Part shown: positions 29,628 through 53,772 of the stretch, piece by piece
Layout of the letters: each line of letters opens with the position of its first letter
Numbering within the stretch: position 1 is the first letter of the stretch
NCBI GenBank assembly: GCA_002345845.1
Contig: DDWF01000073.1
Location: 1 to 54,274, forward strand
Reading direction: 5' to 3'
Source of the DNA: Betaproteobacteria bacterium UBA2293
GTDB taxonomy: Bacteria > Pseudomonadota > Gammaproteobacteria > Burkholderiales > Rhodocyclaceae
DNA: 54,274 bases
Made by a program: the position numbers and the translations under genes
Notes under the pieces: generated by a model
What the model was told of the DNA's origin: nothing
Databases searched by the model: none
The model's input: only the letters and a program-made list of their open reading frames with translations

Positions 29628-29643
29628 TGTCTGCCAGCGTACA
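29628..29643. promoter_or_regulatory. Regulon operator A (43-aa protein and DUF2789)
   Basis: TGTCTGCCAGCGTACA matches the consensus TGTGCGCTGGCGCACA at 11 of 16. The minus-strand -10 TAGTCT (29605-29600) starts 30.5 bp from its centre. The predicted transcript start is about 50 nt before the ATG at 29543. Confidence 0.7.
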
Positions 29644-29659
29644 TAAGCCGCAACCGGCC

Positions 29660-29685
29660 AAAAAAAACCCCGCCAAGCGGGGTTT
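29660..29685 (-). terminator. Terminator of the phasin gene
   Basis: A 9-bp stem AAACCCCGC (29665-29673) pairs with GCGGGGTTT (29677-29685), loop CAA, followed on the minus strand by a run of eight U. It lies 14 bp after the phasin stop. Confidence 0.9.
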
Positions 29686-29698
29686 CTTCCAGCAACGT

Positions 29699-30178
29699 TC
29701 AGGCCGCTCGTTTGGCCTGCTGCGTCACTTTTGTAACAACGTCCGAACCGGCATCGGCGGCAGCGCGCATATTGTCGGCGGCGATGTCGGTGAATTGCTG
29801 GCCACCCTTGGTGATCATGTCGCCCATCGCCGACCAGCTTTCCGGCATGCTGGCCCCGATATTGATCTGCGAGAACTGATCGAGCAGAGCCCGCGTGAAC
29901 TGCTCCTGGGTTGAGGCGATGATTTCATAGGCGCTGCGCGAGTACTCGACCGACTTGTCGAGGGCGGCCTGACCGAGCACGGCCGAGAGGGCGGTCGCCG
30001 GCTGGCCGCCATTTCTGTCCGCCATGGCTGTGCTGCAGGCATCGAAGGTCTCGCGGCAGGTGCTGAAGCCGAGAGCCGACAGGCGGATGACGCCATCCAT
30101 ATAGACAGCAGACAGCTTGCTCATGCTGTCGGCAGAAGCGGTATTGGCATTGCGGGTGTCATTGAGGATTTTGGACAT
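29699..30178 (-). CDS. Phasin family protein
   Basis: The 159-residue protein is mostly helical and amphipathic. The region SVEYSRSAYEIIASTQEQFT and FSQINIGASMPESW matches the Phasin_2 type that coats polyhydroxybutyrate granules. A PHB-depolymerase-like esterase lies 6 kb away at 36346. A 17-bp palindrome (30212-30228) sits 34 bp upstream of its start and may be its operator. No copy of the regulon operator is seen in front of it. Confidence 0.78.
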   Translation of the reverse strand: MSKILNDTRNANTASADSMSKLSAVYMDGVIRLSALGFSTCRETFDACSTAMADRNGGQPATALSAVLGQAALDKSVEYSRSAYEIIASTQEQFTRALLDQFSQINIGASMPESWSAMGDMITKGGQQFTDIAADNMRAAADAGSDVVTKVTQQAKRAA

Positions 30179-30211
30179 TTTTTCTCTCTTGGGATGGTCT
30201 GAAGGAAAGGG

Positions 30212-30228
30212 CGTTACCGTCGGTAACG
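30212..30228. promoter_or_regulatory. 17-bp perfect palindrome upstream of phasin gene
   Basis: Arms CGTTACCG and CGGTAACG flank a single T. It lies 34 bp before the phasin ATG on the minus strand, a typical repressor position. The sequence differs from the regulon operator. Confidence 0.5.
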
Positions 30229-30400
30229 GGGCGTTCGCTTCAGGGGGTACGCCGGGCGCTCTCCCGACCTCTCTCAGGGCAGCGGAAATGCTGTACCAAT
30301 CAAGAATTACAGGTTAGCGGCCGACTGCCGCAGGGTCTGCCCGGAAGCCGCTACAACGGGAATATTTCCGGGCGCTACCTGACCTCCATCGGCGATGCCA

Positions 30401-30419
30401 GTGCGTTGGCCAACGCACA
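30401..30419. promoter_or_regulatory. Candidate operator B, possible autoregulatory site of the Crp-like gene
   Basis: GTGCGTTGG and CCAACGCAC form a perfect 18-bp palindrome; the 16-mer at 30404-30419 matches the regulon consensus at 11 of 16, mainly in the CGCACA half. CATGAT at 30441-30446 starts 29.5 bp from the 16-mer centre, as at other sites. The spacing of the palindrome arms differs from the other operators, so this is less sure. Confidence 0.45.
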
Positions 30420-30501
30420 TATACGCCCCGGCGTTTCGGTCATGATGACAACCCCTGCCGTCGCCTCAGCGCTGGCGCCATTCGCCCCGATCGACAAGCT
30501 G

Positions 30502-31215
30502 ATGCCCACGTCCCATCTGCATTACCAGAACCAACTGCTCGCCGCCCTGCCAGCCGATGAGCGCCGGCGCCTGGGGGTCAACCTGGAACTGGTGCCGATG
30601 CACTATGGTCAGTCGCTCTACGAGCCAGGAACCCAGATTCTCGATGTCTTCTTCCCGACGACGGCCATCGTCTCGCTGCTCAGCGACATGGAGGACGGCA
30701 CGACCGCCGAAACTGCCGCCGTCGGCAACGAAGGCATCGTCGGTATTGCACTGTTCATGGGGGGTGAAACCACCTTGAGCCGGGCCATGGTGTACAGCCC
30801 GGGTCATGGTTACAAACTGACGGGGCGCATTCTCAAGGGGGAATTTCATCGTGCCGGAGCGCTGCAGCGATCCCTGATGCGTTACACCCAGGCGCTGCTG
30901 GCGGAGATGGCGCAAACGCTGGTCTGCATGCGCCACCACACGCTCGAGCAACAGCTCTGTCGCTGGCTGCTGCGCCGCTTCGACCGGCTGGCGCCGCAGG
31001 CGCTGGTGATGTCGCAGGAAATGATCGCCCATGTGCTCGGCGTGCGCCGGGCGGCGATCTCCGAGATCGCCATCGGCTTGCGGACGGCAGGATTGATCAG
31101 CTACGGACGCGGCCGCGTCAACCTGCTCGACCGTCCGGGCCTGGAAGCCCGTGCCTGCGCCTGTTACGCCACCATCCAGGAAGAATTCGCACGTCTGTTA
31201 CCGGGCGGAACGTAG
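30502..31215 (+). CDS. Crp/Fnr-type transcriptional regulator
   Basis: From ATG 30502 the protein has 237 residues. Residues 5-130 form a cyclic-nucleotide-binding-like barrel lacking the Arg-Ser-Ala cassette that binds cAMP and lacking FNR cysteines. Residues 140-225 form a winged HTH (Crp type) with recognition helix GVRRAAISEIAI at about 180-191. It resembles the N-terminal 235 residues of the 51055-53598 fusion, whose start aligns with this ATG. Starts at 30442 or TTG 30406 would precede or overlap the predicted promoter. The ligand is unknown. It is the best candidate activator for the operators listed here. Confidence 0.82.
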   Translation: MPTSHLHYQNQLLAALPADERRRLGVNLELVPMHYGQSLYEPGTQILDVFFPTTAIVSLLSDMEDGTTAETAAVGNEGIVGIALFMGGETTLSRAMVYSPGHGYKLTGRILKGEFHRAGALQRSLMRYTQALLAEMAQTLVCMRHHTLEQQLCRWLLRRFDRLAPQALVMSQEMIAHVLGVRRAAISEIAIGLRTAGLISYGRGRVNLLDRPGLEARACACYATIQEEFARLLPGGT

Positions 31216-31223
31216 TCCGCCGC

Positions 31224-31248
31224 CGACGGCCATCGTTGATGGCCGTCG
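31224..31248. terminator. Hairpin between convergent genes
   Basis: Arms GACGGCCATC (31225-31234) and GATGGCCGTC (31238-31247) form a perfect 10-bp stem with loop GTT, extended by one C-G pair. There is no T-run on either strand, so it may be a weak bidirectional terminator or mRNA end stabiliser. Confidence 0.5.
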
Positions 31249-31260
31249 CCAAAGCTTCTA

Positions 31261-31575
31261 CTACTTGATGCGCATGTCGTTGCGTACGGAACTGACGCCA
31301 CTGACGCCGCGCGCCAGTTCGACTGCCCGATTGGCGGAAGCCTGCGAGGTGACGAAGCCGCTCAATTGCACGACCCCCTTGTAGGTTTCGACATTGATCT
31401 CAGCCACCTTGGTCGCCGGATCGCCGAGGATGGCAGCCTTCACCTTGGAGGTGATGACGCTGTCGTCGATATATTCGCCCGTACCCGCCTGCTTCGACGA
31501 GGACGCGCAACCGCCGGCCGCCACCAGCGTGATGGCGAGAATGGCAGCGGAAAGATACTTGCTGAATGATTTCAT
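31261..31575 (-). CDS. BON-domain lipoprotein
   Basis: The 104-residue protein has a lipoprotein signal with lipobox VAAGGCAS (Cys near residue 23). One BON domain follows, seen as DDSVITSKVKAAILGDPATK and YKGVVQLSGFVTSQASANRA, ending in SVRNDMRIK. BON domains bind membranes; relatives include OsmY and DolP, which help outer-membrane integrity. An AGGAG sequence lies nine bases before the ATG. Operator C with a near-perfect -10 (TATATT) precedes it. Confidence 0.88.
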   Translation of the reverse strand: MKSFSKYLSAAILAITLVAAGGCASSSKQAGTGEYIDDSVITSKVKAAILGDPATKVAEINVETYKGVVQLSGFVTSQASANRAVELARGVSGVSSVRNDMRIK

Positions 31576-31683
31576 GATTGATGCTCCTGTTCCGGGCAGA
31601 ACCGGATGTCCCGTCCGCGGCGTCAGCCCGGCGCACCGGGCTGAGGCTTCCAGAGCAATATAGGGAAAGCGGGCCGCTGCTTC

Positions 31684-31699
31684 GGTACGCCGGCACACA
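31684..31699. promoter_or_regulatory. Regulon operator C (BON lipoprotein)
   Basis: GGTACGCCGGCACACA, 12 of 16 to consensus. The minus-strand -10 TATATT (31662-31657) starts 29.5 bp from the centre; predicted start about 31650, 75 nt before the ATG. Confidence 0.75.
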
Positions 31700-34511: not shown

Positions 34512-34721
34512 TCAGGATTTGTTGGCGTCCTCGAAGCGCTTGATCTGCGCCTCGGCCTCGTCCTTGGAAATGCCGTAGCTTTCCTGCAGCTTGCCGGCCA
34601 GTTGATCGCGCTTGCCGGCAATCACATCAAGGTTGTCATCGGTGAGCTTGCCCCACTGTGACTGGACCTTGCCCTTAAATTGTTTCCAGTTGCCTTCCAC
34701 GATATCCCAGTTCATTTTCAA
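34512..34721 (-). CDS. CsbD family stress protein
   Basis: The 69-residue protein is a clear CsbD-like protein: MNWDIVEGNWKQFKGKVQSQ, WGKLTDDNLDVIAGKRDQLA and GKLQESYGISKDEAE. CsbD proteins are small, abundant general-stress proteins of unknown action. An AAGGAG ribosome-binding site precedes the ATG. Operator E lies about 100 bp upstream. Confidence 0.93.
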   Translation of the reverse strand: MKMNWDIVEGNWKQFKGKVQSQWGKLTDDNLDVIAGKRDQLAGKLQESYGISKDEAEAQIKRFEDANKS

Positions 34722-34819: not shown

Positions 34820-34835
34820 TGTTCGTTTCTGCACA
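34820..34835. promoter_or_regulatory. Regulon operator E (csbD)
   Basis: TGTTCGTTTCTGCACA, 11 of 16 to consensus with both half sites readable. Minus-strand GAAGAT (34797-34792) starts 30.5 bp from the centre. Confidence 0.65.
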
Positions 34836-34864: not shown

Positions 34865-35176
34865 TTACCAGCGCTTGAGCAGCGCGCCGACGATCACGCC
34901 GGTCGCTGCGGCGATGCCGAGCGTCTTCCACGGGTTCTGGCGGACATAGCTGGCGGTGACCTCGGCGGCGTGCGCAGCTTGCTCGCTGACCGCCGTACCG
35001 GTATCGATCAACCGTGTTTTCGCCTGACACAGACTGGCATCAAGCCGCGTCCGGGCCTGGGCGATTTCGTCGTTGATGATTGCACTGCCATCGGCAGCCA
35101 CGGCGGCCAGATCCTTGACCAGGGTCTGTTTGGCGTTTTCGATGCTGCCCAGCGGGGGATTGATTCCATTATTCAT
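34865..35176 (-). CDS. YqjD/ElaB-like (DUF883) protein
   Basis: The 103-residue protein has a long helical, Ala/Gln-rich N-terminal part and a C-terminal hydrophobic anchor (NPWKTLGIAAATGVIVGALL) ending in KRW. That is the layout of YqjD/ElaB/YgaM, inner-membrane proteins that tether ribosomes in stationary phase. A TGGAG ribosome-binding site supports ATG 35176. It is divergent from the DUF3309 gene and shares operator F with it. Confidence 0.88.
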   Translation of the reverse strand: MNNGINPPLGSIENAKQTLVKDLAAVAADGSAIINDEIAQARTRLDASLCQAKTRLIDTGTAVSEQAAHAAEVTASYVRQNPWKTLGIAAATGVIVGALLKRW

Positions 35177-35281: not shown

Positions 35282-35297
35282 TGTGTGCTGGCGTACA
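35282..35297. promoter_or_regulatory. Regulon operator F (divergent: yqjD-like and DUF3309)
   Basis: TGTGTGCTGGCGTACA, 14 of 16 to consensus. Minus-strand -10 GAACAT (35260-35255) starts 29.5 bp away and plus-strand TAGCCT (35318-35323) 28.5 bp away, so it may serve both genes. Confidence 0.75.
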
Positions 35298-35390: not shown

Positions 35391-35549
35391 ATGTCACTCG
35401 GAACCATATTGCTGATCGTCGTCATCCTGCTGCTGATCGGCGCCATTCCCAGCTGGCCGCACAGCCGTAGCTGGGGCTACGGCCCCAGTGGCGGTCTCGG
35501 CCTGGTCCTCATCGTCCTGCTCGTGCTGTTCCTGCTCGGCAAGATATGA
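35391..35549 (+). CDS. DUF3309 family membrane protein, 52 aa
   Basis: The sequence MSLGTILLIVVILLLIGAIP, then SWPHSRSWGYGPSGGLG, then a second hydrophobic stretch ending LLGKI is the full DUF3309 pattern. Two membrane helices flank a conserved WPHSRSWGYGPSGG loop. Function is unknown. AAGGAG eight bases before the ATG fixes the start. Confidence 0.9.
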   Translation: MSLGTILLIVVILLLIGAIPSWPHSRSWGYGPSGGLGLVLIVLLVLFLLGKI

Positions 35550-35576
35550 AAACTCGCCCCAAAGTCAGGTGATGCC

Positions 35577-35741
35577 ATGCTCTACTACACCCTCGTCTTT
35601 CTCGTCGTCGCGCTGATCGCCGGCGTCCTCGGCTTTACCGGCATCGCTGCCGGCGCCGTCGAAATCGCCCGGATCCTCTTCTTCATCTTCATCCTGCTGT
35701 TCATTGGCTCGCTGTTCATGGGCCTGCTGCGGCGCAAGTAA
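35577..35741 (+). CDS. DUF1328 (YtjA-like) membrane protein, 54 aa
   Basis: [20 protein letters not shown] starts two helices, followed by [20 protein letters not shown] and the end FMGLLRRK. This matches the small YtjA/DUF1328 family. It lies 27 bp after the DUF3309 gene and is probably co-transcribed from operator F. Function is unknown. Confidence 0.9.
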
Positions 35742-35782: not shown

Positions 35783-36226
35783 TCAGACGATGTGCTGAAT
35801 GTTGTCCGGCGTCGTGCCGTAATAGGCATGAATGCCGGCCACCCAGGCCGGGTCAGCCATGTCCGGCCACTTGTTCTTGTCGAAGCCCGGCGCCCCTTCC
35901 AGACGCTCCTTGCTGACATCCAGCTCGAAGCGCTTGTTGACGGTATCCAGCTTGAGAGCTTCCCAAGGCACGGCAAACAGCTTCTCGCCGACGCCCATGA
36001 AGCCACCGAACGACAGCACGGCATAACTGACCCGGCCGCTGCGCATGTCGATCATGATCTCCTTGATGTTCCCGACATCCTCGGACGCCTTGTTGTAGAC
36101 GTCATTGCCGACCAGCGTCTCGGCGCCCATCAGATTCGGCCCCGGGCCGTGCCGGGCATCGGGACCGGAAGCGTTGTCGGTCGCTACCTTGTACATCCCG
36201 TATTGATCGCGTTCTTCATAGTTCAT
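35783..36226 (-). CDS. PRC-barrel domain protein
   Basis: The 147-residue protein has a PRC-barrel core: GAETLVGNDVYNKASEDVGN, IKEIMIDMRSGRVSYAVLSF and GGFMGVGEKLFAVPWEALKL. Such barrels occur in photosynthetic reaction centres, RimM and many stress proteins; here the role is unknown. The C-terminal 30 residues carry PDMADPAWVAGIHAYYG. An AGGAG site precedes the ATG, and operator G lies 88 bp upstream. Confidence 0.88.
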   Translation of the reverse strand: MNYEERDQYGMYKVATDNASGPDARHGPGPNLMGAETLVGNDVYNKASEDVGNIKEIMIDMRSGRVSYAVLSFGGFMGVGEKLFAVPWEALKLDTVNKRFELDVSKERLEGAPGFDKNKWPDMADPAWVAGIHAYYGTTPDNIQHIV

Positions 36227-36313: not shown

Positions 36314-36329
36314 TGTACGCCAGCCCACA
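36314..36329. promoter_or_regulatory. Regulon operator G (PRC-barrel gene)
   Basis: TGTACGCCAGCCCACA, 12 of 16 to consensus. The minus-strand -10 TAAGCT (36292-36287) starts 29.5 bp from the centre and is identical to that of operator Q. Confidence 0.75.
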
Positions 36330-37353: not shown

Positions 37354-37547
37354 CGGCGCGAGGGATCGATCGTCGGCAGCGGCTCGACCTCATCGGCGCT
37401 CTCGCCTGTCGCCGAGTTCTCGGCCGAGCGCCCGCTGGCCGGCGGCGGCTCGGCCGGCGTCCGGGTGATCGGTGTCCAACCGGCACAGCCGGTTTCGGTT
37501 GCGCGCCGCAGTACCGGCCGGCGCAGCCGGATTTCCTCATTCGTCAT
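37350..37547 (-). CDS. Hypothetical protein, 65 aa, coupled between reductase and esterase
   Basis: No family is recognised. The protein is Arg-rich at first (EEIRLRRPVLRRATETGCAG) and then Pro/Ser/Glu-rich and probably disordered. It is credible because it has AAGGAG before its ATG and overlaps both neighbours by 4 bp (ATGA with the reductase, GTGA with the esterase). It would be translated as part of a three-gene unit. Confidence 0.65.
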   Translation of the reverse strand: MTNEEIRLRRPVLRRATETGCAGWTPITRTPAEPPPASGRSAENSATGESADEVEPLPTIDPSRR

Positions 37548-38134
37548 GCTCGCTCCTTGAGTGTGAAACCGCTGGCTGCCCAGTTACTGCGAACCTGCCC
37601 GACCAGCGCGGCGACAAGTTCGCGCAGGAACTGCCGGGTCGGCCCGTGCGCCAGTTGCCCGGCGCCGGCGAATGGCCGCTCGCCATTGCCGAGTACGCCT
37701 GCCGGATGATCGACCGGGTGCATGTTCAGTTCGGCCAGCAGCCGTTGCAGCCGGGCCTGCGCCCGCGAATGGACCAGATTGCCGGCGACCGCACTGATCA
37801 CCGCCACCGGCTTGCCCTGCCAGGCGGATGCGCTTGGCGCATGTGCCACCCAGGTGATCGCGCTGTGCAGCCCGCCGGGAACGGCATGGTTGCACTCCGG
37901 CGTAGCGAAGAGGATCGCATCGGCCACTTCGACCCGACGCCGGAAGGCGATCACCGCGGGCGGCGGCAACCCTGCGCGCCGCGCTTCGAAGTAGGGAATG
38001 CCGTGCAGGTCGAGCAGTTCCATGTCCACCCCGGCCGGCAATAACTCCTGTACAGCCAGCAGGGCCAGTCGGTTGCTGGACTCGCGGCGCTGGCTGCCGA
38101 CAATTCCGAGAAGCCTGATTTCGCCCATTTTCAT
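37544..38134 (-). CDS. NAD(P)H-dependent FMN reductase
   Basis: The 196-residue flavodoxin-like protein has LLGIVGSQRRESSNRLALLA (FMN phosphate loop) at the start. ILFATPECNHAVPGGLHSAITWV, read here as PEC/YN-x-S/A-x-PG-x-L-x-x-AI-x-W, is the second family motif. Relatives are ChrR, YieF and SsuE-type quinone/FMN reductases. The ATG at 38134 has GGGGGAG five bases upstream. It opens the reductase-65 aa-esterase unit behind the strongest operator (H). Confidence 0.87.
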   Translation of the reverse strand: MKMGEIRLLGIVGSQRRESSNRLALLAVQELLPAGVDMELLDLHGIPYFEARRAGLPPPAVIAFRRRVEVADAILFATPECNHAVPGGLHSAITWVAHAPSASAWQGKPVAVISAVAGNLVHSRAQARLQRLLAELNMHPVDHPAGVLGNGERPFAGAGQLAHGPTRQFLRELVAALVGQVRSNWAASGFTLKERA

Positions 38135-38181: not shown

Positions 38182-38205
38182 CCTCTGTGCGCTGGCGCAC
38201 AGAGG
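38182..38205. promoter_or_regulatory. Regulon operator H, perfect site (FMN reductase operon and lipoprotein)
   Basis: The core at 38186-38201 is the consensus 16 of 16. Arms CCTCTGTGCG and CGCACAGAGG are perfect inverted repeats around CTGG. Minus-strand -10 CAAGCT (38164-38159) and plus-strand TACCGT (38223-38228) each start 29.5 bp from the centre. Confidence 0.85.
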
Positions 38206-38298: not shown

Positions 38299-38490
38299 AT
38301 GAACAAGCTCGCCATATTGCTGATCGCCGCCGCCACCCTGCTCTCGGGCTGCGTCGTTTATGACACCCCCTACCGTGACGGCGACCGCCGCGGTGAGTAC
38401 GGCCGGGACGGGCAACCTCGCGGCGATCGCGACGGCGATGGCGTGCCCAATCGCCAGGACCGTCGCCCTGGCGATCCGAGCCGTTACTGA
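38299..38490 (+). CDS. Small lipoprotein, 63 aa
   Basis: A lipoprotein signal (MNKLAILLIAAATLLSGCVV, lipobox LSGC with Cys18) precedes a short, highly charged mature part. It is rich in Asp, Arg and Gly (YRDGDRRGEYGRDGQPRGDR) with a possible single calcium-binding-like DRDGDGVPN segment. It is exported to the envelope; function unknown. It shares operator H with the divergent reductase. Confidence 0.8.
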   Translation: MNKLAILLIAAATLLSGCVVYDTPYRDGDRRGEYGRDGQPRGDRDGDGVPNRQDRRPGDPSRY

Positions 38491-38520: not shown

Positions 38521-39048
38521 TCAGGCGACGACGGCGGCATCCTTGAATTCACCGACGGCAGCGCCGATCACTTCGCGGGCCATGGCGGTTTCCTGTTCCG
38601 TCTTCGCCTGCACGACCAGAACCACCTGACCATTGGCCATGGCATCGCGGACCAGGTCCGACAGCCAGCCTTCCTTGCGTTCACCGCCAGCATCCGCACC
38701 GGCGGCAGCACCGACGAAGGCGCCGAGGCTGGCCCCCCAGCCCATCATCACCAGCGGGGCAATCAACGGACTGGCGACGAACAAGCTGACATTGGCCACG
38801 ACCAGCGCCAGTTGCGCCAGGGCGCCGAGGCCGGTGCCGACCGCGGTGCCGATCGCCCCATCGACGAGGACGTTGGTCAGCACTTCGTTGCTGTCACCAA
38901 CAGGTTTGCTGACCTGCGGGCCGGAATCGGCCGCGAAAAGCTGCATCTGCTGACGCGGCAGTCCGCCCTCGAGCAGGCGCGCCAGCGCCCCCTCGGCTTC
39001 CTGCCGGTGGGCAAAAAATCCGGATATGTGATGGCTGTAATCGTTCAT
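38521..39048 (-). CDS. Putative general-stress membrane protein
   Basis: The 175-residue protein begins with a domain like the 17M general-stress family (HISGFFAHRQEAEGALARLL and GGLPRQQMQLFAADS). A Gly/Ala-rich hydrophobic middle follows (GAIGTAVGTGLGALAQLALV and SLGAFVGAAAGADAGG) that may insert in the membrane. It closes with QVVLVVQAKTEQETAMAREV. I cannot assign a molecular role. AGGAG before ATG 39048 decides the start; the longer frame to 40035 is antisense to the hydrolase. Confidence 0.72.
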   Translation of the reverse strand: MNDYSHHISGFFAHRQEAEGALARLLEGGLPRQQMQLFAADSGPQVSKPVGDSNEVLTNVLVDGAIGTAVGTGLGALAQLALVVANVSLFVASPLIAPLVMMGWGASLGAFVGAAAGADAGGERKEGWLSDLVRDAMANGQVVLVVQAKTEQETAMAREVIGAAVGEFKDAAVVA

Positions 39049-39116: not shown

Positions 39117-39137
39117 TCTGTGCGGCAGGCCACAGAC
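39117..39137. promoter_or_regulatory. Regulon operator I (divergent: stress protein and hydrolase)
   Basis: Arms GTCTGTG and CACAGAC flank CGGCAGGC; the 16-mer at 39119-39134 matches 11 of 16. Minus-strand CAGGCT (39097-39092) and plus-strand GATAGT (39156-39161) each start 29.5 bp from the centre. Confidence 0.72.
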
Positions 39138-41462: not shown

Positions 41463-41838
<376 letters not shown>

Positions 41839-41861: not shown

Positions 41862-41877
41862 TGTGCGCTGGCGCACG
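41862..41877. promoter_or_regulatory. Regulon operator J (collagen-like and cls-like genes)
   Basis: TGTGCGCTGGCGCACG, 15 of 16 to consensus, within near-perfect arms TTCTGTGCG / CGCACGGAA. Minus-strand -10 TACTCT (41840-41835) starts 29.5 bp from the centre; predicted leader about 63 nt. Confidence 0.82.
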
Positions 41878-43881: not shown

Positions 43882-43897
43882 TGTGCGCCGGCGCACG
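43882..43897. promoter_or_regulatory. Regulon operator K (divergent: DUF6600 and BON-mla operon)
   Basis: TGTGCGCCGGCGCACG, 14 of 16 to consensus, with a perfect 14-bp palindrome GTGCGCCGGCGCAC inside. Minus-strand CAACCT (43860-43855) starts 29.5 bp away; on the plus strand CCTAAT (43919-43924) is at the same distance but is a weaker -10. Confidence 0.78.
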
Positions 43898-44369: not shown

Positions 44370-45506
44370 ATGACTGATCTTGCTGCCGGACCGGCGACGC
44401 TTGCCTGGAACGCGCAGCAGCAATTGCAGCTGGCCGGTTCCTGGACGGCCCGCGGCCTTGGCCGCATCGACCGGCAACTCGACGCGTTGGCCCAACCAGC
44501 CGGCGCGCCGCTGGTCATCGACGCCGCGGCGGTCGAAGCTTTCGATACGGCGGGCGCCTGGGTCATGCACAAGCTGCTGCAACGCCTCGGCAGCGAAGCG
44601 GCCGGCATCGAACTGCGCGCCCTGCGCCCGGAGTTCGACCATCTGCTGACGCTGGTCGGCGAGGAAATCGCCCGCCAGGGCGAAATCCGCGAACCTGCTG
44701 GCCGGCCACCGGCGACCCCGCTCGCCGGCCTCGGACGGCGCACCGTCAATGCGCTGGAACACGCCCGCGCGCTACTCGCCTTCATCGGCGAATGCGCCGT
44801 CGCCGTCGGCGGCTGGCTACGTCACCCGACGCGCATCCGCTGGCGCCCCATCCTCTACAACATTCGCAGCGCCGGCTTCGATGCCCTGCCCATCGTCGGC
44901 GCGCTGTCCTTCCTGCTCGGTGTCGTCGTCGCCTACCAGGGCGCCGACCAGTTGCGCCAGTACGGCGCCAACATCTTCGTCGCCGATCTGGTCGGCCTGT
45001 CGATGCTGCGCGAATTCGCCCCGCTGATCACCGCCATCATCGTCGCCGGTCGCTCGGGTTCCGCCTACGCGGCGCAGATCGGCACCATGGCGGTGACCGA
45101 GGAGATCGATGCCATGCGCACCATCGGCCTGCCGCCACTGGACGTCCTGGTGCTGCCGAAGTTCTTCGCCTTATTGCTCGCCCTGCCGCTGCTGACCGTC
45201 TTCGCCGATGTGCTCGGCGTCCTCGGCGGGATGATCATGGCGCGCAGCCAACTGGGCGTCGGCTATGGTGAATTTCTCGACCGCTTCGTCCGCACGGTCA
45301 GCCTCGGCACCTTGCTGATCGGCATCGGCAAGGCCCCGGTATTCGCCGCCATCATCGTCACCGTCGGCTGTTTTCAGGGCCTGCGCACGCACGGCGGCGC
45401 CGATAGCGTCGGCCGCCAGACCACGCGCAGCGTGGTCCAGTCGATCTTCCTGATCATCGTCGCCGACGGCCTGTTTTCCGTCGTCTTCAGCCTGCTGAAA
45501 CTGTGA
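44370..45506 (+). CDS. MlaE-type ABC permease with N-terminal STAS domain
   Basis: The 378-residue protein joins a STAS domain (about residues 1-100, VIDAAAVEAFDTAGAWVMHK) to an MlaE permease domain with five helices. The permease shows GALSFLLGVVVAYQGADQLR, MLREFAPLITAIIVAGRSGS and AYAAQIGTMAVTEEIDAMRT. The STAS part probably takes the place of the separate MlaB protein, which is absent here. It is the inner-membrane channel part of a phospholipid transporter. An in-frame GTG at 44352 is a possible longer start. It lies 1 bp before mlaF. Confidence 0.88.
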   Translation: MTDLAAGPATLAWNAQQQLQLAGSWTARGLGRIDRQLDALAQPAGAPLVIDAAAVEAFDTAGAWVMHKLLQRLGSEAAGIELRALRPEFDHLLTLVGEEIARQGEIREPAGRPPATPLAGLGRRTVNALEHARALLAFIGECAVAVGGWLRHPTRIRWRPILYNIRSAGFDALPIVGALSFLLGVVVAYQGADQLRQYGANIFVADLVGLSMLREFAPLITAIIVAGRSGSAYAAQIGTMAVTEEIDAMRTIGLPPLDVLVLPKFFALLLALPLLTVFADVLGVLGGMIMARSQLGVGYGEFLDRFVRTVSLGTLLIGIGKAPVFAAIIVTVGCFQGLRTHGGADSVGRQTTRSVVQSIFLIIVADGLFSVVFSLLKL

Positions 45507-45507
45507 C

Positions 45508-46284
45508 ATGAGCAACCGGCAAGCCCTCGCCGATGCGGTCATCGAGATCAGCGGCCTGACCACCCGCTTCGGCTCGCGGGTCGTCCATGACAACCTCGAC
45601 CTGCTCGTCCGCCGCGGCGAGATTTTTGCGCTGGTCGGCGGTTCCGGCTCGGGCAAATCGACCCTGCTGCGCGAAATGATCCTGCTGCAGCAACCGGCAT
45701 CGGGTTCGCTCAAGGTGCTTGGCGTCGATCTGCAGGACATTGGTGAAGCGGCCGCCCTCGCCCTGCGCCGGCGCTGGGGCGTGATGTTCCAGAGCGGTGG
45801 CCTGTTCGGCTCGCTGAGCGTGCGCGAGAACATTGCTTTGCCGCTGCACGAGCACAGCGCCCTGGCGGCGCCGCTGATCGACGAAATCGCCAATTGGAAG
45901 CTGGCCATGAGCGGCCTCGATCCGGCAGTCGGCGACCAGATGCCGGCGGAACTGAGCGGCGGCATGCTGAAACGGGCGGCCCTCGCCCGCGCCCTGGCGC
46001 TCGACCCGGAGCTGCTCTTTCTCGACGAACCGACCGCCGGCCTCGATCCCGAAAGCGCCGGCGACGTCGACCGGCTGATCGCCAGCCTGCGCCAACTGTT
46101 CGGCCTGACCTGCGTCATCATCACCCACGATCTCGACCTGCTCTGGCAGATCACCGACCGCGTCGCCTTCCTCGCCGATGGCAAGGTACAGGCGCTCGGC
46201 AGCATGGCCGAACTGGCCGCCAGCGACGATCCGGCCGTGCGCCGCTTCTTCGACGGCCGGCACGACCAGACAGGCGCAGCATGA
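45508..46284 (+). CDS. MlaF-type ABC transporter ATPase
   Basis: The 258-residue protein has Walker A LVGGSGSGKSTLLREM near residue 42 and Q-loop VMFQSGGLFGSLSV. The Mla-type signature is LSGGMLKRAALARAL, Walker B is LLFLDEPTAGLD, and ITHDLDLLWQ is the switch. LSGGM with FQSGGLF is the hallmark of MlaF/Ttg2A rather than of other ABC ATPases. It powers lipid transfer with the STAS-MlaE permease. Its stop overlaps the mlaD start by 4 bp. Confidence 0.92.
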   Translation: MSNRQALADAVIEISGLTTRFGSRVVHDNLDLLVRRGEIFALVGGSGSGKSTLLREMILLQQPASGSLKVLGVDLQDIGEAAALALRRRWGVMFQSGGLFGSLSVRENIALPLHEHSALAAPLIDEIANWKLAMSGLDPAVGDQMPAELSGGMLKRAALARALALDPELLFLDEPTAGLDPESAGDVDRLIASLRQLFGLTCVIITHDLDLLWQITDRVAFLADGKVQALGSMAELAASDDPAVRRFFDGRHDQTGAA

Positions 46285-47234
46285 TCGAAACCAAGGTCAA
46301 TTACCCCGCCGTCGGCGCCTTCGTGCTGGTGCTGGCGGCCGTGCTCGTCGCCGCCATCCTGTGGCTGGCCACCGGCGGCGCCTTCCAGCAGCGCTACGAC
46401 CTGTACCGGGCGATTTCCGAAGAATCGGTCAGCGGCCTGAACCTGAACGCGCCGGTCAAATACAACGGCGTCGAGGTCGGTAAAGTGCGCGCGATCCGGC
46501 TCGACCCCGACAACCCGGAGCGGGTGAATCTGCTGTTTGCCATCGAACACGGCACGCCGATCAGGGAAGACACCCTGGCGGTGCTAAAGACGCAGGGACT
46601 GACCGGCATCGCCTATGTCGAACTGAGCGGCGGTGCCGCTGACTCGCCATTGCTGGAGGCCGCCGCTGGCGGCGACTATCCGCTGATCCGCACCAAGCCG
46701 TCGCTGGGCAACCGTCTGGAAAGCGTCCTGACCAACGTCCTGGCCAAGGTCGACAGCACCTCGAACAACCTCAATGTCCTGCTCGGCGCGGAAAATCAGG
46801 CCGCCCTGAAGAGCCTGCTCGCCGATCTGGCCAGCGTCGCCCAGACCCTCGCCGCCCGCCGCGACAGCCTTGATGGCGGACTGCGCGACGCCGCCCGCAC
46901 CTTCCAGCAGACCGCCGCAGCGGCGGACGGACTGGCGCCAGCAATCGAACGCATCGACAAGGCGGCAGCCGCCGTCGAAAAGATGGGCAACGAAGTGAGC
47001 CGCACCAGCGCCAGCGCCGGCCAGACCATCCAGGTCGTCGGCGCCGATATCGAGCGCTTCACGGCGGAAACCCTGCCCGAACTGGAGCGCCTGCTCGGCG
47101 AACTGCGCGAGCTGACGACCTCGCTGCGTCGTCTCAGCGAACAGACCGAACGCAACCCCTCCGGCCTGCTCTTCGGTCGCCAGCCGGTGCCGGCCGGCCC
47201 GGGAGAAGGACCGCGTGAAAGGCCGAAACCATGA
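46281..47234 (+). CDS. MlaD/MCE-domain lipid-binding protein
   Basis: The 317-residue protein has one N-terminal helix (about residues 10-33) and an MCE domain at about 40-115 (YDLYRAISEESVSGLNLNAP, VKYNGVEVGKVRAIRLDPDN and LKTQGLTGIAYVELSGG). A long helical tail (residues 150-290) may form a needle across the periplasm, as in longer MCE proteins, because it exceeds E. coli MlaD (183 aa). The end is Pro-rich. It overlaps the next lipoprotein gene by 4 bp. Confidence 0.9.
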   Translation: MIETKVNYPAVGAFVLVLAAVLVAAILWLATGGAFQQRYDLYRAISEESVSGLNLNAPVKYNGVEVGKVRAIRLDPDNPERVNLLFAIEHGTPIREDTLAVLKTQGLTGIAYVELSGGAADSPLLEAAAGGDYPLIRTKPSLGNRLESVLTNVLAKVDSTSNNLNVLLGAENQAALKSLLADLASVAQTLAARRDSLDGGLRDAARTFQQTAAAADGLAPAIERIDKAAAAVEKMGNEVSRTSASAGQTIQVVGADIERFTAETLPELERLLGELRELTTSLRRLSEQTERNPSGLLFGRQPVPAGPGEGPRERPKP

Positions 47235-47911
47235 ATGAAAGACCGTTAATGCAGTCTGGCCGACTGGCCGCCGGCGTCCTGCTGCTCAGCCTGCTCGCCG
47301 CCTGCGGAGCGCTGGAGCGCGCCGACCAGCCACCGCCGGTGTTCTACGCCCTGGACGGCAACGCCCAGACCAGCCAGAAGCCGGCGCCCATGGCGGCGCC
47401 GCAAGCCGCCCCGACCCTGCTGATCAGCACGCCACAAGCGGCGCCGGGGTTCACCAGCCGGCGCATCATCTACGTGCGCGCGCCCCACCAGCCGGAGCAT
47501 TTCGCCAATAGTGAGTGGATCGACACGCCGCCGCGCATGCTCGCCCCCCTGCTTGCTCCCGCCCTCGAAGGCAGCGGCGCCTTCCGCGCCATTGTCCTGG
47601 CGCCCAGCGCCACCGCCAGCGAACTTCGCCTGGATGTCAGCATCGTCCGCCTGCAACATGAATTTTTCACCTCACCCAGCCAGGTCCGCCTGACGCTGCG
47701 CGCCTACCTGGTGGACAACAAAACGCGCCAGGTGTTGGCCTGGCGCGAATTCGATGAAACGGCTGTCGCCCCGCAGGACAGCCCTTACGGTGGCGTCATC
47801 GCCGCCAATGCGGCGCTGCGGCAAGTGCTCGACGCGCTGGCGACATTTACCGCCGATGCCGCGGCGAAGCAGCCGGCAGCGTCAACTCAGCGATTGCCAC
47901 CACGGTTGTGA
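47231..47911 (+). CDS. ABC-type transport auxiliary lipoprotein (PqiC-like)
   Basis: The 226-residue lipoprotein (LLSLLAACGALERADQ, lipobox LAAC) belongs to the PqiC/DUF330 auxiliary group. FYALDG comes near the start, then RRIIYVRAPHQPEHFANSEW, IDTPPRMLAPLLAPALEGSG and LRLDVSIVRLQHEF. Such lipoproteins sit at the outer membrane and pair with MCE transporters. It closes the mla operon. Its last 25 bp overlap, tail to tail, the 47887 gene. Confidence 0.88.
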   Translation: MNERPLMQSGRLAAGVLLLSLLAACGALERADQPPPVFYALDGNAQTSQKPAPMAAPQAAPTLLISTPQAAPGFTSRRIIYVRAPHQPEHFANSEWIDTPPRMLAPLLAPALEGSGAFRAIVLAPSATASELRLDVSIVRLQHEFFTSPSQVRLTLRAYLVDNKTRQVLAWREFDETAVAPQDSPYGGVIAANAALRQVLDALATFTADAAAKQPAASTQRLPPRL

Positions 47912-48929: not shown

Positions 48930-49541
48930 TTACTTCCCGAAACTCAGTTTCGCCTTGTTCAGACAGCTGTCCTTGGTGTCGCCGGAATAGGCATCGCATT
49001 TCTCTTTGGCGACGGCGTATTGCGCATCGCTCTTGTCGGCCGTTGCATCCTTGCGCGCATCGGCACTCTTCTGGCTGGCTTCGCTGCGCGCTTCGGTCGA
49101 TGTTTCCTTGGCCGTCGCCTTGGCGTCAGCCGTCTTCATCTGCGCCTTGGCATCGGCCTTGGCCGTCGTTTCGGCCGCCTTGGCTTCCTTCACGCAGACA
49201 TCCTTGGCGTTGCCGGACAGGTCGTCGCACTTTTCCTTGGCCACGCCATAGGCCGCATCGGCCTTGGCAATACCGACGTCGTAGCGGCTCTTCTCGCTCG
49301 GCTTGTAGCCGGCTTCGAGTTCAGCCAGAGCCACCTTTTCGTTGCCCTTGGCCTGGGCCACGCAAATATCGCCAGCATTGCCGGAGTAGCTGTCGCAGCT
49401 CTTCTTGGCGCTCTTGTAATCGGCGGAGATCCTGTCCTTGCCGGCCTGATAGTCGGCCTTGCTCATGTCGGCGGCCAGGGCGGCGCCACTGAAGGCGAGA
49501 GTGACCGCGAGTACTGCCGTACGGATAGTGAAATTGTTCAT
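48930..49541 (-). CDS. Secreted Ala/Lys/Asp-rich protein with three Cys-x10-Cys repeats
   Basis: The 203-residue protein has a signal peptide (MNNFTIRTAVLAVTLAFSGA, cleavage ALA-AD). Three copies of the element C-D-x-x-S-G-(N/D)-(A/T)-x-D-x-C-x-x-x-A-K occur near residues 49, 104 and 182. The KKSC/KEKC context gives probable disulfides in helical hairpins. A 50-residue Ala/Lys/Thr/Asp linker (about 118-170) separates copies two and three. I do not recognise a function. Operator N lies about 180 bp upstream. Confidence 0.78.
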   Translation of the reverse strand: MNNFTIRTAVLAVTLAFSGAALAADMSKADYQAGKDRISADYKSAKKSCDSYSGNAGDICVAQAKGNEKVALAELEAGYKPSEKSRYDVGIAKADAAYGVAKEKCDDLSGNAKDVCVKEAKAAETTAKADAKAQMKTADAKATAKETSTEARSEASQKSADARKDATADKSDAQYAVAKEKCDAYSGDTKDSCLNKAKLSFGK

Positions 49542-49714: not shown

Positions 49715-49730
49715 AGTCCGCTGGCGCACA
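49715..49730. promoter_or_regulatory. Regulon operator N (Cys-repeat protein)
   Basis: AGTCCGCTGGCGCACA, 14 of 16 to consensus. Minus-strand -10 CATGCT (49693-49688) starts 29.5 bp from the centre. Predicted start near 49681 gives a long leader of about 140 nt. Confidence 0.75.
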
Positions 49731-49749: not shown

Positions 49750-50772
49750 TCAAAACTGGAACAACGACAGACCTAGGCCGACGGTGGTCTGGCGATGGTT
49801 GTAGTCGAGCATGGTGGCGCCGTAACCGGAGAAGAGCTGGACGTACCAGCGCAGGCCGGCCGGCTGGCTGGCAAAGACCGGGTAGGTCCAGTCCAGCTGC
49901 AGCGAACCGCGCTTGGTCGAGTTCAGCTGGCTGCGCCAGGTCAGGCCGACGGTGCTCGCCCCGGGCGCCCAGTTCATGGCCAGCTCGCTGCGGCCGATGT
50001 AGTCGACCAGATCGGGATTGTCGTCGTTGTTCTGCACTCGCAGCCGCTGGTTGACCCGCAGCATCAAGCCGAGCTTGCCCTTTTCCAGGCCGAAGCCGAG
50101 GTACATGCGGTTCCAGCTACGAGACAGCGGCTCACTCTGGCCGTTGGACTGGTGGGCGGCCCCCAACTGGACCATACGCCAGTGCCAACCGAAGGGCAGG
50201 CGCCCGATTTGCTCGGGCACCGGCACGACGTAGATGAGTTCGGGCTGGTAATCGGTACTGCGGAACGGCGCCGAATCCTGGCTATCCCAGACCTGCCACA
50301 GCGAGCGCTGGGTATAGGCGGCCCACAGGTCGGCCCCGGGCAACAACAGGTTCTCGACAATTTTGGCGCGCAGCGAAACCTGCAGCTTGACCTCCGCCTG
50401 CCGATAATCGTCATGGCGTTCGGCAGTGCCTTGCGTCGGACTGCTCGGCGCGCGATTGATACGGCTGGTGTAATGCAGCGGCAGCAGGAAGTTCGGGTGA
50501 TAGGTACGAATGATGAAGTCGCGCCGCTTGTCGCTGGCGCCGAGTTCCCACTCGGCAGACATGGCCGATGGCTCGTCCGCCGCCATTTCTCTGGCCGGCA
50601 CAGTCGGCGGCACCACTGGCAGCGTAAGTGCGCTCGGCACATTGGCGAAGGCGCGGTCATAGCAGGCCAGACGCAACTGGTCATCCGGCTCGCCGCTGCA
50701 GCTAACGCCCGACTCGTCGGCGAGGCCGGTGCCGGTCAGCAAGGCCAGGGCAATGCAGATCCCGCTCTTCAT
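49750..50772 (-). CDS. pldA: Outer-membrane phospholipase A (PldA/OMPLA)
   Basis: The 340-residue protein has a signal peptide (MKSGICIALALLTGTGLA) and a Cys-containing mature N-terminus. A beta-barrel follows. YHPNFLLPLHY, WAAYTQRSLWQVW and the active-site segment AAHQSNGQSEPLSRSWNR give the His, Ser and later Asn of OMPLA. It ends in LSLFQF, with the terminal Phe of barrel proteins. It hydrolyses misplaced phospholipids in the outer leaflet. GGGGAGAG precedes ATG 50772. Operator O predicts a 48-nt leader. Confidence 0.9.
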   Translation of the reverse strand: MKSGICIALALLTGTGLADESGVSCSGEPDDQLRLACYDRAFANVPSALTLPVVPPTVPAREMAADEPSAMSAEWELGASDKRRDFIIRTYHPNFLLPLHYTSRINRAPSSPTQGTAERHDDYRQAEVKLQVSLRAKIVENLLLPGADLWAAYTQRSLWQVWDSQDSAPFRSTDYQPELIYVVPVPEQIGRLPFGWHWRMVQLGAAHQSNGQSEPLSRSWNRMYLGFGLEKGKLGLMLRVNQRLRVQNNDDNPDLVDYIGRSELAMNWAPGASTVGLTWRSQLNSTKRGSLQLDWTYPVFASQPAGLRWYVQLFSGYGATMLDYNHRQTTVGLGLSLFQF

Positions 50773-50853: not shown

Positions 50854-50869
50854 TGTACGCTAGCGCACG
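50854..50869. promoter_or_regulatory. Regulon operator O (pldA)
   Basis: TGTACGCTAGCGCACG, 13 of 16 to consensus. Minus-strand -10 GATAAT (50832-50827) starts 29.5 bp from the centre, the best -10 of the group after TATATT. Confidence 0.82.
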
Positions 50870-50969: not shown

Positions 50970-51002
50970 GCAGTCATCATCGGCACTTCGGCTGGCAAAT
51001 TC

Positions 51003-51018
51003 CGTGCGCTGCCGCACA
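51003..51018. promoter_or_regulatory. Regulon operator P (candidate small RNA)
   Basis: CGTGCGCTGCCGCACA, 14 of 16 to consensus. Minus-strand -10 GATGAT (50981-50976) starts 29.5 bp from the centre. It lies 37 bp after the stop of the Crp-PAS-GGDEF gene, with no protein gene directly behind it. Confidence 0.75.
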
Positions 51019-51054
51019 TAGCGGCCCCCGGGTAGTCGCCGGCGCACTAGCTCG

Positions 51055-53598
51055 TCATGTGACAGGCGCCGACGCCACCAGTAGCGAGCGGTCGCCGCCG
51101 GCCTGGCGGGCTGCCACCGCGGCCTCTCCGGCCAGCGTCAGAAGTTGCTCGGCGGAGTCGCAGGCGGCAGCGAAGGGCACGATGCCGATACTCATGGCGA
51201 TGGCAACTGGCTGCCCGCCGATGCGGATCGACATGCCGGCGACCTTCAGCCGCAGGCGTTCGGCAAAAATCAGCGCCGCTGCCGGATCACCCGGCAGCAG
51301 CACGGCGAATTGTTCGCCGTCGAGGTGGCCGGCAAAATCGACCTGGCGCAACTCCTCCCGCAGCAAGGCGGCGAACAGGTGCAGGAAGGCATCGCTGGCC
51401 AGCAAGCCGAGCGCCTCGCTGATCGTCGGAAAGTCATCGAGGGTGATCATCAGCAGCGAGACATCGCGCTCGACACCCCGGCGCAATGCCGACAGCGCCT
51501 GTTCCATATGGGTCAGGAAATGTGCCCGCGTCGCCAGTTCGGTCAGCGGATCGATACAGGCCCGGCGCTGCAACTCGGCCTCCTCCGCCTTCTTGGCGGT
51601 GATGTCCTTGAGCACGACCATCGCGGCGACGCGCCCTTCCCATTCGACACTGCTGACGTGAAGCAGGCAATCGATCTGCTGCCCGGCCTTGTGCATCAGG
51701 CGGATCTCGGATTGGTCGGCCAGCCGCTGACCAAGCGAATGACCCCGATGGGCCTTCATCGCCCACGGGCGGTCGGCCTCAAAGATCAGTTCCATGAAGG
51801 ACTTGCCGAGGCATTCCTCGGCGGCATAACCGAGCAGTTCCAGCCCCTTCGGGTTGATGAACTTGAGCAGGCCGTCCTGCAGGATGGCGATGCTCAGCGG
51901 CATCTTCTCGATGAAGCTGCGATAGCGCCGTTCCGAATTCTTCAGGGCCCGCCGCGCGTTGTGCTGCTCGGTCACGTCGCGGGCGAAGCCAACGGTGCCG
52001 ATCAACTGCCCGGCCAGATTGACCGGCGACTTGTACACTTCAAACCAGCGCGGCTGGCCATCCATATCGAGCAGCTGTTCATCGACCTTGCGCACCCCCG
52101 ATTCGAGCACCGCCCGGTCCTGGGCCTGGTAGATTTCGGCAGACTCGCGGCGGGTGATGTCGAAATCCGACAAGCCGACCAGGGCATCCGGCGAGTCTTT
52201 GCCGAAGATCTCGGCAAATGGCGTATTGACGGCGAGAAAGCGGGATTGCTGATCCTTCAGCCAGACCATGAAGGGAAAGTTGTCGAGCACCGCGCGCTGA
52301 TACTGCTCGCGTTCGCGCAAGCTGGCTTCGGCCTGCCGGGCGGCGGTGATGTCGAGCACCACCAGGCGGCACTCTTCGCCGCTTTCGTCGGGCACGCCCT
52401 CGACCCGGACCCAGGCCGCCGGGCGGTGCGCGGTGGGCAGCAGCGCCAGCTCGCATTGCATCTTGTGGCGCGCCTGCAGCACCTCGCTGCAATAGCGGTT
52501 GAAGGCTTCGAGATCGTCAGCGGCGACATGGGCGGCGAAACGATGGCGGCCTTTCTGCGATCCCTTGATGCCGAGCAGGATCGAACCGGCCAAGTTCATG
52601 TCGAGGATGACGCCGTGCCGGTCGAGGGTGAAGTAGCCGACCGGAGCGAAATCGTAGATATCGGCATAACGGTCGCGCAGGGCATCGGCCTCGTCGTAGG
52701 CATGGCGCAATTCTTCGTTGTGCATTTCCAGTTCGATCTGGTGCACCTGCAGTTCGTGCACCAGTTGCACGTAATCCCACTGCGTCTTCGGTGCCTCCGG
52801 GGCGCTCTGGCGGAAGCGCACTTCGGCGCGCTGGCGCAGGGTTTCCGGATTGGGTCGCGAGCGCCCCTTGAGACGGGTGGCCGGCGACAGCTGGAACAGG
52901 CGGTCGTATTCCGACTTGACGACGGCGTAGCATTCGCAGGCCCGGGCCTCGATGCCGGGGCGGTCGGTGATGGTGATATGGCCGCGGCTGTACTGGATCA
53001 GGCCGGCCGCCTGCAGCTTGCCGGCAGCCTCGGTGACGGCTTCGCGGCGCACGCCGAGCATGTTGCCGATCAGTTCCTGGGTCATGTTCAGTTGATTGCC
53101 TTGCAGGCGGTCGAGACTGAGCAGCAGCCAGCGGCACAGTTGCTGGTCCACCGAATGATGGCGGTTGCAGACGACGCTCTGCGCCATCTGCGTCATCAGC
53201 GCCTGGGTGTAGCGCAAGGCCAGATGCAGCAGCTCGCCACCCTGGTCGAGTTCCCAGCGCATGATTTCCATGCGCAGCCGGTAGGCGGTGCCGGCGCTCT
53301 GGATCACTGCCCGGTGCGTCGTCGTATCGCCACCGAGCACCAGCGGGATGCCGACCAGTCCGTCGTTGCCGGTAATCGCCAGTTCGGCGGATGACCCCTT
53401 GCTGGTGGTGAACACCAGCGAAACGATGCAGTTGGCGGGGAAATAGACATGGCTGAGGCTGTCGCCGGATTCGTAAAGCACTTGACCGAGCTTCAGCGAA
53501 ACAAGTTCGAGGTCGTCCTGCAGGCGGCCGTAGTCGTTGGCCGTCAGGGCGGCCAGGATACGGTTCTGCCTGGGATTCTGGAGTTCTTGCAAGGGCAT
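51055..53598 (-). CDS. Crp-like regulator fused to three PAS domains and a degenerate GGDEF domain
   Basis: The 847-residue protein joins a cNMP-like barrel (10-130) and Crp-type winged helix (145-225, recognition helix GVRREAVTEAAG) to a coiled linker LVHELQVHQIELEMHNEELR. Three PAS domains follow (about 310-420, 430-545, 550-670) and a GGDEF-family domain (675-840). The signature is DGEQF at 760-764 instead of GGDEF, and the D-x-D-x-F-K-x-x-N-D segment is altered, so cyclase activity is unlikely. Its N-terminal part is paralogous to the 30502 regulator. GGGAG before ATG 53598 fixes the start. Operator Q suggests autoregulation. Confidence 0.88.
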   Translation of the reverse strand: MPLQELQNPRQNRILAALTANDYGRLQDDLELVSLKLGQVLYESGDSLSHVYFPANCIVSLVFTTSKGSSAELAITGNDGLVGIPLVLGGDTTTHRAVIQSAGTAYRLRMEIMRWELDQGGELLHLALRYTQALMTQMAQSVVCNRHHSVDQQLCRWLLLSLDRLQGNQLNMTQELIGNMLGVRREAVTEAAGKLQAAGLIQYSRGHITITDRPGIEARACECYAVVKSEYDRLFQLSPATRLKGRSRPNPETLRQRAEVRFRQSAPEAPKTQWDYVQLVHELQVHQIELEMHNEELRHAYDEADALRDRYADIYDFAPVGYFTLDRHGVILDMNLAGSILLGIKGSQKGRHRFAAHVAADDLEAFNRYCSEVLQARHKMQCELALLPTAHRPAAWVRVEGVPDESGEECRLVVLDITAARQAEASLREREQYQRAVLDNFPFMVWLKDQQSRFLAVNTPFAEIFGKDSPDALVGLSDFDITRRESAEIYQAQDRAVLESGVRKVDEQLLDMDGQPRWFEVYKSPVNLAGQLIGTVGFARDVTEQHNARRALKNSERRYRSFIEKMPLSIAILQDGLLKFINPKGLELLGYAAEECLGKSFMELIFEADRPWAMKAHRGHSLGQRLADQSEIRLMHKAGQQIDCLLHVSSVEWEGRVAAMVVLKDITAKKAEEAELQRRACIDPLTELATRAHFLTHMEQALSALRRGVERDVSLLMITLDDFPTISEALGLLASDAFLHLFAALLREELRQVDFAGHLDGEQFAVLLPGDPAAALIFAERLRLKVAGMSIRIGGQPVAIAMSIGIVPFAAACDSAEQLLTLAGEAAVAARQAGGDRSLLVASAPVT

Positions 53599-53693
53599 TT
53601 CTGATCTCCCGCGGCGTTTGCTGGCCATGCATCCGGAATGGTGCACAACAGCATGCGCGCAACCTCAGCTTAGTTCGCCTTATCCGCTTTGTA

Positions 53694-53709
53694 TGTTCGC
53701 TTTCGCACA
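53694..53709. promoter_or_regulatory. Regulon operator Q (Crp-PAS-GGDEF gene)
   Basis: TGTTCGCTTTCGCACA, 13 of 16 to consensus. Minus-strand -10 TAAGCT (53672-53667) starts 29.5 bp from the centre; predicted leader about 62 nt. Confidence 0.78.
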
Positions 53710-53756
53710 TAGCATTTTTTCGCTGGCCGAGCGGCCGGACGGCAGGAATGCTTCTC

Positions 53757-53772
53757 TGTGCGCCGAAACACA
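53757..53772. promoter_or_regulatory. Regulon operator R (CheB-CheR-type gene)
   Basis: TGTGCGCCGAAACACA, 12 of 16 to consensus. Plus-strand -10 TAGGCT (53794-53799) starts 29.5 bp from the centre; predicted leader about 54 nt. Confidence 0.75.

Follow-up and report, generated by a model that had tools for sequence, protein, structure and literature searches.

Sites of the window

The window, that is the whole stretch of 54,274 nucleotides analysed here (positions 1 to 54,274 of contig DDWF01000073.1, Betaproteobacteria bacterium UBA2293, Rhodocyclaceae), carries a palindromic element in front of stress, envelope and signalling genes of a 24-kb block. An earlier sequence-only reading had listed 14 copies of this element between 29,628 and 53,772 and had proposed that one regulator family controls the whole block. 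The element was recovered at all 14 coordinates (11–16 of 16 matches to the consensus given then), and a fifteenth copy was added at 30404–30419, in front of a stand-alone Crp gene. The 15 palindromes are very probably operators of one subfamily of the Crp/Fnr superfamily, with class II activation predicted for each gene. The operator core is TGTGC-N6-GCACA, with an extended form of about TCTGTGCGCNNGCGCACAGA. Read in the direction of the gene behind it, the 16-bp core is followed 21 bases on (at a few sites 20 or 22) by the start of a -10-like hexamer, NANNNT; this distance is called the offset. The sites are as follows.

29628..29643, minus strand: -10-like TAGTCT at offset 22; gene 29412–29543 (43 residues), then DUF2789 gene 29152–29388
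30404..30419, plus strand: -10-like CATGAT at offset 21; before the Crp gene called at 30442–31215
31684..31699, minus strand: before BON gene 31261–31575
34820..34835, minus strand: before CsbD gene 34512–34715
35282..35297, no strand assigned: between DUF883 gene 34865–35176 (minus) and DUF3309/DUF1328 genes 35391–35741 (plus), with a hexamer both ways
36314..36329, minus strand: before PRC-barrel gene 35783–36226
38186..38201, no strand assigned, top-scoring: FMN reductase gene 37544–38134 (minus), then 37350 and PHB-esterase gene 36346; second hexamer towards 38299–38490 (plus)
39119..39134, no strand assigned: between 38521–39048 (minus, 175 residues) and alpha/beta hydrolase gene 39193–40023 (plus)
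41862..41877, minus strand: before collagen-repeat gene 41463–41765 and PLD-domain gene 40040–41401
43882..43897, minus strand: before DUF6600 gene 41959–43818
49715..49730, minus strand: before 48930–49541 (203 residues)
50854..50869, minus strand: first of a pair before phospholipase A1 gene 49750–50772
51003..51018, minus strand: second of the pair before the same gene
53694..53709, minus strand: before Crp-PAS-GGDEF gene 51055–53598
53757..53772, plus strand: faces a CheB-domain gene with its start near 53860, whose frame continues past the window end

Allowing up to three mismatches, the earlier consensus gave 16 strand-matches in the window (1.97 expected), a number reached by none of 100 shuffles; the matches fall at 12 places, namely 11 of the 14 listed sites and 10345. 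A symmetric 22-bp matrix built from the 14 listed sites found 15 places of at least 14 bits, against 0.07 expected in Markov-3 sequence, after which the score drops to 8.5 bits. The first 29 kb, where no copy had been seen before, are indeed free of sites of at least 14 bits (best score 8.5 bits). To avoid circularity, a second matrix was made from 277 sites of other genomes with the window left out; it placed the same 15 sites at ranks 1–15 (14.7–29.7 bits), followed by 39065 (10.6 bits, intergenic) and 27555 (10.2 bits, coding). In leave-one-out scoring every window site ranked 15th or better. The element keeps out of coding DNA, since 15/15 sites are intergenic by independent gene calls; for the 30404 site this assumes a Crp start at or after 30442, and a TTG start at 30406 is formally possible. 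The shorter spacing TGTGC-N4-GCACA was rejected, with 38 matches against 39.2 expected in the window; it is not enriched because the spacing is wrong, the true one being TGTGC-N6-GCACA.

The sequence-only reading had noted that the half-site is not that of Crp. Base 5 does differ, but the spacing and the predicted promoter position are those of Crp; the element is thus a Crp-type operator with a changed base, not one remote from Crp. A single regulator family for the block is strongly supported by promoter position, conservation and recognition-helix covariation (see below). Some genes of the block have no site: within the window, the Mla operon (44424–47911), for example, has none directed at it.

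Promoter position and conservation

At 15/15 window sites NANNNT was found at offset 20–22 in at least one direction, compared with 0.198 of random intergenic positions in the block (binomial P 2.8e-11). The offset was picked after inspection of the window sites, and the fair test is offered by other loci. These were taken from a scan with an alignment of 30442–31215 homologues, of which the best 80 of 559 loci were used (1.37 Mb; Beta- and Gammaproteobacteria, going by most titles). In 69 of them (11 loci with another helix type, described below, being excluded) the 277 sites used for the second matrix were found, and the operator matrix excludes the -10. NANNNT stood at offset 21 in 98/276 and 116/277 strand readings, with medians over 60 offsets of 13 and 11, and 239/277 sites had the hexamer at offset 20–22 in at least one direction. 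A site centre at about -41.5 is the position of class II activators of the Crp type, and if the hexamer is read as the -10, the palindrome centre would lie near this position relative to the predicted starts. The hexamers of the 277 sites have the form (T/C)ANNCT, with C as the fifth base in 51% of 215. A C at this place recalls RpoS promoters. The promoters of Burkholderia cenocepacia have TAnAAT (PMC4603805), unlike the hexamers found here.

The element is abundant around regulator homologues. In the 80 loci, 306 sites of at least 14 bits were found (3.8 expected), and 73/80 loci had at least one; 267/277 sites of at least 16 bits are intergenic, with 75% of the DNA of the loci called coding. 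In 56/69 loci the Crp gene has a site of at least 10 bits within 400 bases upstream. The Crp genes of the 80 loci frequently have neighbouring paralogues, each behind its own site. Besides the query Crp, 166 genes lie downstream of sites; 162 of these encode at most 800 residues, and 150 of the latter were scanned. They included 26/150 Crp-type proteins (9/150 in length-matched controls) and 14 CsbD proteins (5 in the 150 controls), as well as 8 glycine-zipper proteins, a family absent from the 25 that the control listing shows. Counted by homologues in the 69 loci, sites precede CsbD in 17/22 cases, 48930 in 7/7 and Crp in 85/116; homologues of MlaF (0/8) and 48425 (1/19), which are site-less in the window too, mostly go without.

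The number of elements per genome follows the regulator. In 140 genomes of one class, a genome was called regulator-positive when it had a homologue at E up to 1e-30. The 19 positive genomes gave 454 pattern matches against 141 for the reversed-pattern control (median excess 15), and the 121 negative genomes 823 against 667 (median excess 0; rank test P 3.7e-9). Sites are clustered: one genome of 2.9 Mb has 29/44 within 94 kb, and that of Accumulibacter regalis has 13/23 within 11 kb. A strict pattern, TGTGCG-N4-CGCACA with one mismatch, was little above its reversed control in ten whole genomes (matches/controls 11/9, 18/18, 36/35, 17/8, 15/8, 17/28, 2/8, 8/10, 52/59 and 51/68), and a 20-mer calibrated on the loci was therefore used instead. 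The 20-mer gave 13–55 matches against 2–22 controls in 13 Glu-type genomes (some weak, 14/7 and 31/22). Three Ser-type genomes showed an excess too (34/24, 41/19 and 84/31), because the pattern permits A at position 4.

Two relatives whose fusion protein (the counterpart of 51055–53598) is 67–68% identical have the island in rearranged order, one with 13 and the other with 14 sites, in 40 kb in either case. The expectation that the motif would be conserved in front of orthologous genes was borne out for 8/9 and 9/9 testable window sites. A site is kept in both relatives before the BON, DUF883/DUF3309, PRC, 38521, collagen-like, 48930, fusion-protein and CheB genes, and in one of the two before CsbD. 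In the stretches of the two relatives, orthologues of 29412, 37544, 41959 and 49750 were not seen, nor, the fusion protein aside, was one of 30442. The collagen-like gene, 41463–41765, has an operator in front and codes for a small protein made up in part of Gly-X-Y repeats of the collagen type; its orthologues in the two relatives (54–64% identity) are site-bearing as well.

Crp-type proteins and position 4 of the half-site

The window encodes two Crp-type proteins.

51055..53598, minus strand: N-terminal half of Crp type (helix GVRREAVTE), followed by PAS domains and a GGDEF domain of degenerate sequence
30442..31215, plus strand: stand-alone Crp-type regulator with helix GVRRAAISE

Both have an HTH_Crp_2 domain (E 5.2e-11 in 30442–31215, 1.2e-14 in 51055–53598), and a cNMP_binding domain was found in 51055–53598 (E 7.5e-7) and not in 30442–31215. 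The start of the latter is likelier at 30520, a Met where 6/12 aligned homologues begin. Its structure model has strands at 48–127, a helix at 128–162 and a winged helix, with CRP-family structures as best fold matches at a modest TM-score (0.45); the superfamily features found are the Crp-type helix-turn-helix and the barrel with a long dimer helix. NCBIfam gave no family for 30442–31215 and no Crp family among the 25 matches listed for 51055–53598.

The identity of the regulator is indicated by the recognition helix. Eleven of the 80 loci have none or one site of the window type; they come from Burkholderia, Paraburkholderia, Trinickia, Cupriavidus and an unclassified member of the Burkholderiaceae, and their helix reads GVRRS (ten) or GVRRP (one). 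Elsewhere it reads GVRRE, except in L019 (GVRRG) and L070 (broken frame). At this last locus, from Polaromonas, the match (10001–11052) spans 1052 bases and contains a stop in straight translation, so that the Crp frame is apparently broken. A palindrome search of the 11 Ser/Pro loci yielded GTACG-N4-CGTAC (17 against 0), and the refined operator gave 48 sites against 1.6 expected. All 48 are intergenic, 45/48 have the hexamer at offset 20–22, and they again precede PRC, DUF3309, BON, CsbD and glycine-zipper genes (32/33 genes scanned). Half-sites were then tallied with a matrix blind at position 4. Among Glu loci, the ratio of G/T to A/C was 93:25 in the 12 with the same Leu helix tail and 274:134 in a further 44; the 11 Ser/Pro loci gave 2:88. 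Per locus, the G/T fraction was 0.6–1.0 in the tail-matched Glu loci and 0–0.17 in the Ser/Pro loci. L069, the only locus with Pro for the key Glu, has A/C at position 4 too (6 sites), so loss of Glu, and not gain of Ser, may be what matters. The exact Ser-type pattern occurs 74 times against 47 controls in 39 genomes of the genus of L044 (15/74 in the genome of L044 itself, 8/10 of those of genome G587 within 37 kb, absent from 17/39 genomes), and 11 times against 71 in 41 genomes of the genus of L074, which is of the Glu type.

In a HMMER alignment with GlxR, the key Glu of the family pairs with the residue that matches Glu181 of Crp. In work by Ebright, mutation of Glu181 reportedly altered the base preference at pair 4 of the Crp operator. 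The base-contact residues of Crp are Arg180, Glu181 and Arg185 (section 7 of PMC12531629). Two of these, Arg185 and Glu181, read base pair 4 of T1G2T3G4A5, with Glu181 taking the cytosine (PMC11253593). Residue and base thus change together as the structure would predict, and this covariation ties the operator to this family of Crp-type proteins far better than neighbourhood does. It is likely that this Crp subfamily regulates the window sites.

The window sites favour G at position 4 (0.65). Since 51055–53598 has Glu at the key position, this protein or a Glu-type orthologue outside the window is favoured as the regulator, and we infer that the Crp-PAS-GGDEF protein would be the best candidate within the window. 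It is no isolated case: 213 database proteins match it at E up to 1e-100, 79 of 120 listed matches align over at least 97% of its length, and the key Glu is present in 116 of the 120. The nearest named relatives are from a metagenome-assembled genome, HGW-Betaproteobacteria-7 (93%), and from Azonexus, a genus of the Rhodocyclales; by these relatives alone an origin in the Rhodocyclales is probable. The GGDEF motif reads DGEQF with RxxD five residues before, and could allow binding of cyclic di-GMP (c-di-GMP) without its synthesis; GGDEF or GGEEF is found in 37/72 fusion-protein relatives with a detectable motif.

The stand-alone protein has Ala at the key position, as have its nearest relatives (Ala, Gly and Thr types exist), and is the weaker candidate for this reason. 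In 399 genomes, close relatives of it amounted to 6 matches at E up to 1e-85, with at most 63% identity. That this Ala-type protein rather than the Glu-type fusion is the main regulator of the window sites is possible, though we consider it unlikely: its gene sits in the block with a site in front (30404), but the window sites prefer G at position 4 like those of the Glu-type loci, and Ser/Pro goes with A/C. Its family has Cys 162, 173, 239 and 241 and His 165 and 166 invariant in 13 aligned sequences, with few exceptions in the 80 loci (L019, L079). Glu and Arg of the phosphate-binding cassette, which we take to be the residues that hold cyclic AMP (cAMP) in CRP, have no counterpart in the alignment of the family with GlxR (by eye). 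From these two observations a redox or metal signal is our guess. There is no cysteine before residue 162 in 30442–31215, and thus no N-terminal Fe-S cysteine cluster of the FNR type.

Several points weigh against the assignment of the palindromes to this subfamily. The structure model of 30442–31215 is mediocre (mean pLDDT 73), and the key residue of this protein, the query that retrieved the loci, is itself Ala. Each locus was typed by its one retrieving Crp, with paralogues left untyped, and 12 loci (Glu by eye) were dropped from the grouping by the regular expression. Half-sites are not independent, and the covariation is close to one evolutionary event because the change from Glu to Ser is confined to one group of related genera. 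Among homologues in the 69 loci, BON (3/13), DUF3309 (3/11) and alpha/beta hydrolase (1/5) show no excess over the background of 24.5% (283/1156), and likewise DUF883 (3/8). Finally, the excess was below 10 in 5/19 regulator-positive genomes and at least 10 in 10/121 negative ones; distant homologues under the E cut-off may explain the latter.

Alternatives, known systems and meaning

With the operators assigned to the Crp subfamily, we infer the following sequence of events. A dimer would bind each palindrome about 41.5 bases before the transcription start and would turn on the gene behind it by class II activation. In the role of binder we would place the Glu-type 51055–53598, whose own gene has a site in front, or an orthologue of the Glu type encoded outside the window, and not 30442–31215. 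The stress, envelope and signalling genes of the 24-kb block would in this way be switched on together, perhaps by a redox or metal signal.

Repression by the same Crp-type proteins would use the same sites, and RNA polymerase can also be blocked by a protein bound over the -35 region; with the centre predicted at about -41.5, where class II activators bind, and with hexamers such as CAACCT, CATGCT and CAGGCT that resemble weak promoters in need of help, we regard it as improbable. More doubtful still is a reading in which an alternative sigma factor recognizes the element as one part of a core promoter. The fixed distance to the -10-like hexamer, and the lean of this hexamer to the RpoS-like C, would suit such an arrangement, and Oyserman et al. 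(2016) reportedly gave a sigma-factor reading of a motif, possibly the present one, that many Accumulibacter genes have about 35 bp upstream. However, the element is two-fold symmetric over 22 bp and has genes to both sides, as would suit a dimer; one of its bases covaries with a residue of the Crp recognition helix, and the number of elements per genome follows the presence of the Crp homologue. A dispersed repeat (REP-like or a terminator hairpin) without regulatory role is hardly credible: the element is palindromic, intergenic and clustered, but its spacing to the -10 is fixed, one base follows a protein residue, in two relatives with a rearranged island the sites have stayed with their genes, and the inspected flanks have no constant T run after the palindrome (no terminator scan was made).

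Among known systems, CRP of Escherichia coli shares with the Crp-type regulators proposed here the helix-turn-helix, the 5-N6-5 palindrome with its TGTG core and Arg and Glu at the places of Arg180 and Glu181; the centre at about -41.5, predicted here, would be a further likeness. It differs in that base 5 of the present half-site is C and not A (TGTGC-N6-GCACA in the window and the 80 loci, against TGTGA-N6-TCACA for CRP), that the place of Arg185 is mostly Glu, that the cAMP-holding residues are not conserved (by eye), and that the present targets form an island of small genes for stress and the envelope. FNR, ANR and DNR belong to the same superfamily; the present system lacks the TTGAT half-site, and 30442–31215 lacks the N-terminal cysteine cluster. 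Bcam1349 and Clp (3iwz) are c-di-GMP-responsive and resemble our case as Crp-type proteins linked to c-di-GMP, whereas here a degenerate GGDEF domain lies within the same polypeptide (51055–53598), so that the link would be a predicted one. The low-oxygen-activated (lxa) locus of Burkholderia cenocepacia comprises 50 genes co-induced at low oxygen (PMC3759415, PMC9104464 and PMC9733578), and both Burkholderia loci of our set (L051, L064) carry a Ser-type regulator; no universal stress protein was present among the ten scanned of 15 called genes of the Burkholderia arboris locus L064. Regulators of this kind are very common (7988/8000 scored candidates matched). A description of the operator, or a name or target list for these regulators, was not found in searches of open-licence literature, which misses most subscription journals.

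Overall, we lean, by a small margin of confidence, towards a stress/envelope regulon of Beta- and Gammaproteobacteria with its own Crp subfamily, carried on chromosomal islands. Its entire DNA code would have been rewritten in the Burkholderia-Cupriavidus group by a single helix change, of Glu to Ser/Pro, from TGTGCG to GTACG or GTCCG half-sites at numerous promoters, with the PRC, DUF3309, CsbD and glycine-zipper targets staying, and in the Azonexus-like lineage the PAS/GGDEF fusion would tie DNA binding to c-di-GMP signalling. For the CsbD, PRC-barrel, DUF3309 and glycine-zipper families the analysis supplies an operator together with a list of its targets and a residue predicted to read it, and the Glu/Ser switch would represent a natural experiment on the change of the DNA code of a whole regulon.

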